The notes under the pieces: model-generated
Databases searched by the model: none
What the model saw: the letters and a program-made list of their open reading frames with translations, nothing else
Told to the model about the DNA's origin: nothing
NCBI GenBank assembly: GCA_944324345.1
Contig: CALUVT010000004.1
Span: forward strand, 1-64,000
DNA length: 64,000 nt
Direction of reading: 5' to 3'
DNA from: Candidatus Gastranaerophilales bacterium
GTDB taxonomy: Bacteria; Cyanobacteriota; Vampirovibrionia; Gastranaerophilales; Gastranaerophilaceae
Made by a program: the position numbers and the translations under genes
In this document: positions 28,111 through 58,098 of the stretch, piece by piece
How the letters are laid out: every line of letters begins with the position of its first letter
Position numbering within the stretch: position 1 is the stretch's first letter

Positions 28111-28773
28111 ATGGGAATAAAAGGATTTACACTTGCAGAAACTCTTATTACACTTGGGATTATAGGTGTTGTAGCAGCCCTTACAATACCTGCATTAATA
28201 ACAAATCACCAGAAAGAAGTCACACTGAACAAATTAAAAGAAACATATAGCCTCCTTGGACAAGCATTTAAAAGTGCAACTGTCGAAAATGGCGGTGATA
28301 TGAGTTACTTATTCACAAATTCTAGTGACACTGATAATCAAAAGTTTGCGGAGAAATTTATAGCAAAAAACATTATACCCTACGTCAACGTTATTGAAGA
28401 CTGTGGGTATCAGTTGACCAAATGCAGAGGTAAATCATATACATATCTGGATAATACAACAACCGGATATCTTGGAGTCGTAAGATATGGAGTTCTCTTA
28501 AAAAACGGCACTTTTTTGGATTTTGTATTTAATTACGGGCACAGTGACGCAACCATATATGTAGATTTGAATGACAAGAAGGAAAACAACAAGTTCGGGA
28601 AAGATATATTTGTAATGTACATAGAACAGGGTAAAAACGGAATATTTTTTGATGGATATAAATTAAACGATACACAATTGGAGGATAATTGCAAAAAAGG
28701 TGGAAACGGAAGATATTGCGGAGCATTAATACAAAGAAATAATTGGCAATTCCCAAAAGATTACCCTTGGTAG
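28111..28773 (+). CDS. Type IV prepilin-like protein (pseudopilin family)
   Basis: A 220-aa secreted or pilus subunit. It starts MGIKG then FTLAETLITLGIIGVVAALTIP: prepilin peptidase cuts after G5, with Glu at +5 and a hydrophobic helix. The globular domain has Cys pairs, a D152-L-N154-D155...G163-K-D165 loop like a calcium loop, and ends NNWQFPKDYPW. The start is set by GGAGG (28098-28102). An in-frame upstream ATG at 28066 has no RBS. It is a single gene, divergent from the RHH regulator. It could form a T4P/T2SS-like pseudopilus; no assembly genes are in the window. Confidence 0.85.
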   Translation: MGIKGFTLAETLITLGIIGVVAALTIPALITNHQKEVTLNKLKETYSLLGQAFKSATVENGGDMSYLFTNSSDTDNQKFAEKFIAKNIIPYVNVIEDCGYQLTKCRGKSYTYLDNTTTGYLGVVRYGVLLKNGTFLDFVFNYGHSDATIYVDLNDKKENNKFGKDIFVMYIEQGKNGIFFDGYKLNDTQLEDNCKKGGNGRYCGALIQRNNWQFPKDYPW

Positions 28774-48317: not shown

Positions 48318-49141
48318 CTAATCTTCGCCCCACTTTTTAATCGGATAATCTTTTAATTGGAAATTGTGGTTTACAAGCCAGGCCAAACAGGTAGAATGAT
48401 TATTCGTTTTGGAATCAACCCCTTGAACGTAACCAACGATGTACCAAACTCCTAAAGGAGTCCTTGAGCAATATTTTGTTATATCATCTTTGCTGTAATC
48501 TCTTCCTGCCGGGCCAAAGCCGTGCGGATAGCCATATCTGACATCAGAAGATGTATTCAATGTCATCTGATAAACATCAACCCCAAACATATTTGGTCCC
48601 TCATTTCCATTTACATCCACGGTGATTTGGGTTGCCCATTTAGTATTATAAACACCAAATATATATATAGAACCATTTTGTAATAAATATTCATAAACAG
48701 AGTTATGCGAATTAAAATTATCATAACCTTCGTACACAGCATTTGTAGTGTCATTGAATTCTTTTTTCTTAACATAAGCCAGTCTTTTATCCACATATTT
48801 TTCAAAAAAATCGTTGGTAAAATCAGGCCAAACCTCATAAGGGCCTAATTCTCCTTCCAGGCTTGACACTAATTTTTGCATGTCTGCATAGCACTTTCTA
48901 GCTTGAGTTGTATATTTATTGCCTATATAATTCATCAAAACAGGATAAGAAAGTGCAGCAACAACCCCTATGATACCAAGGGTAATTAATGCCTCAGCCA
49001 GAGTAAACGCACAAAACTTTTTGTACAAATTTGTTCTTGTAAAAAAACTATAAAATCCATTTTTTCTAAACGGCTCAAATAAGGAGGCTAAGCTGAAAAG
49101 TGCCCCCCCCCCGAAATTCTCGGTTTTCTTGCTTCTTCCAT
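48318..49141 (-). CDS. Type IV prepilin-like protein, candidate phase-variable start
   Basis: The globular part has a calcium-like loop D-V-N-G-N-E-G-P-N...G-V-D and ends FQLKDYPIKKWGED. The mature start FTLAEALITLGIIGVVAA follows LYKKFCA, with Ala in place of the usual Gly at -1. A TTG at 49028 would give a 236-aa frame but lacks an RBS. The real signals are AGGAGG (49154-49149) and ATG 49141, whose frame (MEEARKPRIS...) enters ten G (49112-49103) and, as assembled, stops after GHFSA. With 11 or 8 G it continues without a stop into the pilin, adding about 38 residues. The feature spans the whole unit. Confidence 0.65.
49103..49112 (-). repeat. Homopolymer tract of ten G on the coding strand
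   Basis: Ten G inside the leader codons of the 48.3-kb prepilin, the only such run in a genome of about one-third GC. It is able to slip and change the reading frame. Confidence 0.8.
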
Positions 49142-49191
49142 TACTATTCCTCCTAATTTTTGTTTTTTTATACTTCTGTTTGAACTTTCAA

Positions 49192-49220
49192 ATAGTATCA
49201 TGTTTTGTATTATTTTTCAA
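49192..49220 (-). promoter_or_regulatory. Promoter of the 48.3-kb prepilin
   Basis: TTGAAA (49220-49215), 17-nt spacer, TGA-TACTAT (hexamer 49197-49192), about 40 nt before AGGAGG and ATG 49141; it fits a start well upstream of the G tract. Confidence 0.6.
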
Positions 49221-50279
49221 TTATTTTTTAAACGCATCTGCTATTGATTTGTTGTAGTCAGGACGTAAAATTCCTTTTTCAGTGATTATACCCGTTATTA
49301 ATTCATGAGGAGTTACGTCAAACCCCGGATTTATAACTTTTACATCAGGAGCACAGATTATTTTTCCGTTAATATGAGTAACTTCTTCATGAGAGCGTTC
49401 TTCAATAACAATCTCATCACCTGTCTTAATAGATGTATCAATCGTTGATAAAGGTGCAGCTACATAAAAAGGAATATTATGATACTTAGCTGCAATCGCA
49501 ACTGTATATGTTCCGATTTTATTTGCGGCATCACCATTCGCAGCAATCCTGTCGGCTCCGACAACAACCATATCAATCATACCTTTTTTCATAAAATAAG
49601 AACACATACCATCGGTAATTAGAGTTGTAGGAATTCCGTCCAAAGTGAGTTCAAATGTCGTAATTCTTGCACCTTGCTGTCTGGGACGTGTTTCATCGGC
49701 AAAAACCTGAATTGTAGGGTCATTAGCGAAAGCTGAACGAACAACTCCTAGTGCTGTTCCATACCCAACTGTAGCAAGTCCGCCTGCATTGCAGTGTGTC
49801 AATATAGTTGCTCCCTTTGGAACAACTTCGGCACCATAATCACCGATTTTTTTATTAATTGCAATATCTTCATTTTCCAATTTTATAGCATTCTGTTTCA
49901 ATTCTTCAACGATGCCATTCACATCAGCTTTTGAATTTTTTATAACATCTTTTTGCTTTTCAACTGCCCACATGAGATTAACCGCCGTTGGTCTGGATGT
50001 TGCCATATAATCAGCTTTTTTGAGGAGTTTTTTCACAAACTCATCCCGTGAAAGATTTTCCTTTGCAAGTTCTTGAGCATACAAAACAACACCATGTGCA
50101 CCGGCAACACCAATTGCAGGAGCTCCTCTCACTATCATTGTTTTTATTGCATCAAACATTTCTTGACCTGTAGTAATATTAACATACTTAAATTCGTAGG
50201 GTAAAACTGTTTGATCAACCATTTTTGAATAATTATCAACCCATTCTATCGTTTTTATTTTTGAATGAAATTCTGCCAT
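49221..50279 (-). CDS. mtnA: S-methyl-5-thioribose-1-phosphate isomerase
   Basis: Methionine salvage: converts methylthioribose-1-phosphate to the ribulose form. A 352-aa eIF2B-like protein with RGAPAIGVAGAHG, THCNAGGLATVGYGTALGV (catalytic Cys), and VGADRIAANGDAANKIGTY (Asp). GAGGAAATAAA precedes the ATG. It is the last gene of the ruvC operon. Other salvage genes are not in the window; some anaerobes use this enzyme in a methylthioadenosine shunt. Confidence 0.95.
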   Translation of the reverse strand: MAEFHSKIKTIEWVDNYSKMVDQTVLPYEFKYVNITTGQEMFDAIKTMIVRGAPAIGVAGAHGVVLYAQELAKENLSRDEFVKKLLKKADYMATSRPTAVNLMWAVEKQKDVIKNSKADVNGIVEELKQNAIKLENEDIAINKKIGDYGAEVVPKGATILTHCNAGGLATVGYGTALGVVRSAFANDPTIQVFADETRPRQQGARITTFELTLDGIPTTLITDGMCSYFMKKGMIDMVVVGADRIAANGDAANKIGTYTVAIAAKYHNIPFYVAAPLSTIDTSIKTGDEIVIEERSHEEVTHINGKIICAPDVKVINPGFDVTPHELITGIITEKGILRPDYNKSIADAFKK

Positions 50280-57492: not shown

Positions 57493-58098
57493 TCATAGTT
57501 TTATTGGGTAGTCGTCCTCAAATTCAAAGTTATCATGCTTTAAAATTAAAAAACAATAACCACCTGAGTCACTACTACCAGCGTTAGCTTTACATTTTGA
57601 TTTTGCTTGTTCTCGCGATACATTATATAAATTTGATATTTTATTATTGACTATATATGTAGTATAAACATCTTTACCCCCTGCATTTGGGGATTTGTCA
57701 CCATTTACGTCCATTACGATATCATATGCCGCACCAGGATGAAAACTTAATGAACTACCATCATTTAAATAGACTTTAATGTCAGCATTTTGAGAATTAC
57801 CATAAACTACTTTGTGATATTTTATGTAAGGTTTAATATATGTATCAAAAAATTTCACATGAGTTATTGAACCGTTAGATAAATTACCGAGATTTGGTAT
57901 TGTCCAACCACTCATATCTCCATGTTCGTCTTCAGACAACCTAAAAGTATTTAAAACAGTATTATATGTCTTTAGCAATTGAGCTGAAAATGATTTCTTT
58001 TTATAACTTTGGATAATACTTGGGATTGTCATTGCCGCCACTACTCCGATTATACCCAAGGTTATCAACACTTCCGCTAACGTAAAACCTTTTTTCAT
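57493..58098 (-). CDS. Type IV prepilin-like protein
   Basis: A 201-aa protein: MKKG then FTLAEVLITLGIIGVVAAMTIPS, prepilin peptidase cut after G4, Glu at +5. The globular domain carries the calcium-like loop D130-V-N132-G133-D134...N138...G141-K-D143 and ends FEFEDDYPIKL. AAAGGGG before the ATG is the RBS. It is divergent from an XRE regulator, with two operator-like inverted repeats in the gap. Confidence 0.88.
   Translation of the reverse strand: MKKGFTLAEVLITLGIIGVVAAMTIPSIIQSYKKKSFSAQLLKTYNTVLNTFRLSEDEHGDMSGWTIPNLGNLSNGSITHVKFFDTYIKPYIKYHKVVYGNSQNADIKVYLNDGSSLSFHPGAAYDIVMDVNGDKSPNAGGKDVYTTYIVNNKISNLYNVSREQAKSKCKANAGSSDSGGYCFLILKHDNFEFEDDYPIKL

Follow-up and report, generated by a model that had tools for sequence, protein, structure and literature searches.

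Ten-guanine tracts in prepilin leader peptides point to default-OFF phase variation across a large set of pilins in Gastranaerophilales

Introduction

Phase variation through simple repeats has mostly been studied in pathogens. In Neisseria, pilC and opa are phase-variable, and pilE undergoes antigenic variation by gene conversion from silent copies; Campylobacter, which switches genes through poly-G tracts, is poor in mismatch repair. In endosymbionts and insertion sequences, transcriptional slippage at homopolymers is known to rescue genes. Gastranaerophilales are non-photosynthetic relatives of Cyanobacteria. Among the papers searched, none describes phase variation in Gastranaerophilales or Melainabacteria; pilus assembly machinery and a prepilin peptidase have been reported for a relative (PMC5877343). 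A PhasomeIt survey of Campylobacter recorded 5 to 81 phase-variable genes per strain, with 53% of tracts at 9G and 26% at 10G and an ON share in draft genomes near that of neutral drift (PMC6321876). In Neisseria, a guanine quartet has been described at pilE (PMC3547852).

Here we analyze a prepilin gene with a ten-guanine (G10) tract in a 64,000-nucleotide stretch of Gastranaerophilales DNA (the window), together with its counterparts in the source genome and relatives. The system resembles that of Campylobacter in its dispersed poly-G tracts, its AT-rich gut hosts, its frame-dependent surface genes, and its dozens of loci per genome. It differs in that one gene family dominates, the tract lies in the leader peptide, a flank motif and replichore polarity are shared, and MutS1 and MutL are present. 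As in Neisseria, G-rich DNA lies near pilin genes and the proposed variation concerns pilus-related surface structures; unlike pilE, every pilin here is encoded in full behind a start codon and G10 tract of its own. As in endosymbionts and insertion sequences, an intact out-of-frame gene stands behind a homopolymer of about ten bases, whereas those cases mainly involve A/T runs and have neither flank motif nor replichore polarity. Locked length and phase, replichore polarity, and a motif independent of coding sense set this system apart from its close kin, the contingency loci of Campylobacter and Neisseria.

Results

The tract separates a prepilin from its start codon

The prepilin gene of the window lies on the minus strand. 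A candidate promoter, identified by consensus match (TTGAAA-N17-TACTAT, 49192..49220), is followed by a Shine-Dalgarno sequence (AGGAGG, 49149..49154), a 7-nt spacer, an ATG (49141-49139), and, at a distance of 29 nt from the ATG, a run of ten G (49103..49112) within the prepilin leader peptide, the proposed switch. The tract sits in a conserved DNA motif, TTC-G10-CACTTTTCAGCTTAG (49088..49115), for which the consensus is TC-G10-CA with GCTT or GCTC within +7 to +16. As assembled, the reading from the ATG (49088..49141) is OFF, ending after 17 codons at a TAG (49090-49088). The mature prepilin ORF, which begins with FTLAEALITLG (48318..49007), is intact and joins the frame of the ATG solely after gain of one G or loss of two; the former (or the latter) leaves 274 codons open through FTLAEALITLGIIG. 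After the upstream stop, the sole start in the pilin frame is a TTG (49028) that lacks a Shine-Dalgarno sequence. A G10 tract thus stands between ATG and pilin such that a change in its length switches the frame, the arrangement of a poly-G contingency locus. The preliminary description, which had read the same start signals and ten-G run, the stop at 10 G, the opening at 11 or 8 G, and a pilin frame devoid of its own ATG and ribosome-binding site, is correct to the base.

A profile search placed PF07963, which covers the prepilin peptidase site and hydrophobic N-terminus, at 48945-49022 with 24.3 bits, above the cut-off; the protein started at the TTG scores 20.6 bits, slightly below the cut-off of 21.2. 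The G10 tract is the one run of at least seven G or C in the whole window, and the window's two other prepilins, which serve as internal controls, have ordinary short leaders, i.e., MGIK (28126-28773, plus strand) and MKK (57493-58086, minus strand) before GFTLAE. An Rfam search of the tract region gave no match. In a loose test, a -10-like hexamer was present 10-75 nt upstream of the ATG in 162 of 220 tract-bearing prepilins. The upstream neighbor (49221..50279, minus strand), which from family resemblance we take to be mtnA (S-methyl-5-thioribose-1-phosphate isomerase-like), provided an anchor for finding the orthologous site.

Tracts mark most prepilins of the source genome

The source genome of the window (G000; 1.76 Mb, five contigs, AT-rich) contains 48 tracts of at least ten G, compared to the approximately 0.06 runs of ten or more G/C expected across the whole genome from the composition of the window; this genome-wide set lay outside the view of the preliminary description. 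With overlapping matches counted, G tracts seven or eight long are absent, and lengths of nine, ten, and eleven occur three, 44, and four times, respectively; two of the nine-G tracts were read, and neither has the motif. All except one of the 48 lie between a Shine-Dalgarno sequence with ATG and a prepilin motif, in the leader peptide. The exception (L038, G000:C3:52088) is an acyltransferase-like membrane protein that is in frame. With 68 PF07963 matches in this genome, about two thirds of the prepilins (47/68) carry a tract, and 17 tract-free prepilins have ordinary starts or short leaders.

The silent genes are maintained. Approximately 41 ORFs downstream of the tracts in G000 are intact, most of them encoding 160-310 aa. 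Values of dN/dS were 0.14-0.36 in seven of the eight measurable pairs, and the paralogue pair with the greatest divergence gave 0.57; since some pairs are paralogues with saturated dS, the better evidence comes from the less diverged orthologues L054/L056 (0.16), L088/L214 (0.14), and L201/L219 (0.31). No start codon at all follows the tract in 7/41, 13/28, 17/20, and 37/92 of the pilin frames counted, so these many loci must begin at the upstream ATG.

Several observations concern the leaders themselves. One prepilin on the minus strand (L275, G000:C1:380678) has an interrupted tract, C5-T-C3 (CCCCCTCCC), within the usual motif and looks, from its sequence, like a switch locked off by a point change. 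Near-identical leader regions are fused to different pilins at L015, L041, L042, and L020 (two copies), suggesting that leaders have been duplicated or gene-converted and that recombination has occurred close to the tract. At many loci (e.g., L045), tract and pilin are separated by the same leader peptide, C-Y-N-S-D-[MI]-K-H-H, encoded by TATAATAGTGATATG, which is retained even though the leader should be removed.

Tract length and phase are nearly fixed

Length, phase, and flank statistics rest on three genomes (G000, and partial sets of tracts from two congeneric species, G007 and G043); loci L140-L243 were retrieved by a G10 pattern, are thus biased in length and flank, and were excluded. 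Judged by the best start, 41-42 of the 47 tract-bearing prepilins of G000 need one additional base to come into frame, five already read in frame in the assembly (L002, L026, L032, L034, and L035), and none needs two; an automatic count had placed L043 at +2 through choosing a second start. The in-frame G11 alleles L026, L032, and L035 coexist with out-of-frame G10 paralogues with similar flanks. In G007, 62/66 need +1 and none is in frame: all 62 G10 pilins are out of frame and the four exceptions are all of non-G10 length. Among 30 tracts read in G043, 20 of 21 need +1, the exception being an in-frame G8. Overall, 122 of the 133 prepilin tracts in this three-genome sample need +1, six are in frame, and five need +2, a strong departure from the expected one third (122/133; p = 3e-45).

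Of 148 unbiased tracts, 139 are G10 and approximately 6% are of other lengths; around 92% of prepilin tracts in the three genomes share the same OFF phase, with around 5% ON. Both length and phase are therefore held more tightly than in Campylobacter. ON and OFF states are far from random between loci (122:6:5), though the definition of a contingency locus does not require randomness. Homologous loci do differ in length across ON and OFF states, though rarely. Lengths found beyond G000 include G8 (in frame), G9, and G12, which fit slippage from G10, and the non-G10 tracts of G000 mostly behave as expected of slips from the G10 state. In G007, losing the C that adjoins the tract accounts for at least one case (L097) better than a slip does; among 16 orthologous pairs, tract differences were few and some arose from point changes adjoining the tract rather than slippage. 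The preliminary description proposed that the assembly had caught an off state. The locus is indeed OFF, but this understates the pattern: around 90% of tracts in three species rest OFF at G10, which argues for a default set by design and not for a single locus that happened to be off.

Tract orientation follows the replichore

In all three genomes, the strand carrying G follows the replichore rather than the gene. The G strand changes twice in G000, from minus to plus in contig C1 (35-212 kb) and from plus to minus in C2 (210-305 kb), twice within contigs in G007, and once in the listed part of G043. There are hence no more than two switches per genome, and two is the pattern expected for an origin and a terminus. 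Oppositely oriented genes (30 in the three-genome sample) carry C10, so that G remains on the DNA strand that it occupies elsewhere in the replichore, and their non-coding strand bears the complete flank motif, TC-G10-CA...GCTT. A C precedes the tract in all 133 cases, as sample selection required, and follows it in 130/133. GCT[TC] occurs at +7..+16 in 97/103 genes with G on the coding strand and in 29/30 with C, compared to 1-6 in control windows. The leader residues are Gly or Pro, depending on tract orientation, which fits a region that, from what is known of the family, would be removed by prepilin peptidase. Skew at four-fold sites shows the tract strand to be rich in G and T, indicative of the leading strand, and one 16S fragment agrees; in contrast, the direction of the ribosomal L2 gene is opposite to this reading in all three genomes. 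Because of this contradiction, we consider the tract G to lie only probably on the leading strand.

The system extends across the genus

In the first search of relatives, runs of nine G were matched in all 23 congeneric genomes (1 to 329 matches, most with more than 50), compared to 0 to 10 in other families of the order. Among the matches listed from 84,980 species genomes, the motif occurs mainly in MAGs named Gastranaerophilales or Melainabacteria. Records of Fusobacterium sp. CAG:439 (L168, L178-L180, L186, and L188) have the same motif and pilins and are therefore probably mislabelled Gastranaerophilales. Five motif matches in IMG/VR were judged to be due to chance, since all fall in coding sequence of GC-rich phages that lack prepilins there.

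A near-identical copy of the window locus (L051) at the mtnA site is likewise G10 and out of frame. Different G10 prepilins occupy this site in G004, G043, and G018, and most other genomes have none. The contig bearing L051 (G041:C28) is probably a contaminant from the species of the window, given that G041 also has a second mtnA, 95% identical. Tracts of G10 also occur in a few non-prepilin genes in G043 (L116, L115, L112 near 434), encoding a glycosyltransferase-like, a large membrane, and an unknown protein. Pilin-like proteins of ~500 aa with YTLAE[VI]I[VV]VM motifs stand behind G10 tracts at L117, L127, and L134 of G043 and, by their sequences, are possibly pilus-tip or other special subunits.

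Discussion

We propose that slippage at replication phase-varies a large prepilin repertoire that is OFF by default at G10 and ON at G11 or G8, a reading to which we assign a probability of about two in three. Each such type IV prepilin gene has its own Shine-Dalgarno sequence and ATG, and its leader, the portion that prepilin peptidase would cut off, contains a tract of exactly ten G framed by the conserved motif. At G10, the leader would run into a stop and no pilin would be made; a replication slip that adds one base (G10 to G11) or removes two (G8) would bring the pilin into frame, and such switching would be reversible in living populations. With almost all loci OFF at their commonest tract length, each cell would show few of its ~50 or more pilins at once, and the set would differ from cell to cell. 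The 48 runs of one genome, nearly all of them at pilin starts, suggest bet-hedging in surface filaments on a large scale. Since tracts keep one orientation within a replichore irrespective of which way the gene runs, we infer that their behavior is set at the level of DNA and replication. Mismatch-repair loss is ruled out as a cause by MutS1 and MutL, which are present across the genus; their presence, in contrast to Campylobacter, also means that slippage may be slow and counts against the model, as do tract lengths tighter than those of Campylobacter.

A further observation counts against this model: symmetric one-base slips predict that loci ON at G9, i.e., those needing +2, would be as common as those ON at G11, yet they are almost missing. 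Symmetric random slippage explains neither this scarcity nor the fixed length and phase. Either slippage is directional, which the fixed fork orientation could provide, or it occurs during expression. In the latter case, RNA polymerase would add a base, or the ribosome would shift by -1 on GGG GGG G or CCC CCC C, giving each G10 gene low constant expression without change in the DNA. That +1 is needed at G10 nearly everywhere and +2 almost never, that none of the 62 G10 pilins of G007 is in frame, and that mismatch repair genes are present would all suit such programmed slippage, as would the length of exactly ten, close to that of the RNA polymerase hybrid. However, polarity and flank motif track the DNA strand and not the transcript, with the motif reversed in C10 genes, and in-frame G11 and G8 alleles occur. 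A ribosomal slip site would require no exact ten-base length, and while the homopolymer could be used as one, the downstream stimulatory structure of a programmed -1 frameshift is absent: no RNA structure was detected 3' of the tract (mean z of +0.18 and +0.13; none below -2). We regard expression-level slippage as unlikely, albeit a live rival to the on/off switching claimed in the preliminary description, which is otherwise the best-supported reading; the strand-bound motif and in-frame G11 alleles favor slippage in DNA by about two to one or better. A dedicated, strand-directed switch cassette is a further proposal, which we regard as rather unlikely: TC-G10-CA...GCTT would be recognized at the fork by a polymerase, repair factor, or specific protein that holds the tract at ten with rare +1 events, and would have spread to prepilin starts in both coding senses with constant orientation relative to replication.

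Pilin expression might instead bypass the tract by using an internal start or promoter, such as the TATAATAGTGATATG stretch, the upstream ORF being incidental; in many G000 loci, TATAAT-N6-ATG directly upstream of the pilin does resemble a leaderless promoter. In 21 of 60 such stretches, however, ATA, GTA, or other codons stand in place of the ATG, and the -10-like codons vary, so that they read as coding sequence; moreover, start codons are absent downstream of the tract at many loci, and the window locus has just its TTG. An internal leaderless promoter is thus unsupported as a general route, and we consider this explanation improbable. Sequencing or assembly error, named as the main alternative in the preliminary description, is very unlikely: ten-base G runs are error-prone, but the same G10 phase recurs at dozens of loci in independent assemblies, G10 is shared by the near-identical L051 and more than 100 other loci from short-read MAGs, and G11 alleles were assembled too. 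It is equally implausible that the genes are decaying pseudogenes; the frame is broken as assembled and L275 looks locked off, but the ~41 intact ORFs in one genome, dN/dS well below 1, and identical phase across species stand against decay.

The tracts appear to form a genus-wide system in uncultured gut Gastranaerophilales, one that governs most of a large pilin repertoire. If this is true, individual cells would differ in the pili that they display, and automated annotation would give these genes wrong starts or treat them as broken. With length, phase, and replichore polarity all fixed, the system also makes it testable how orientation relative to the fork affects the rate and direction of poly-G slippage.
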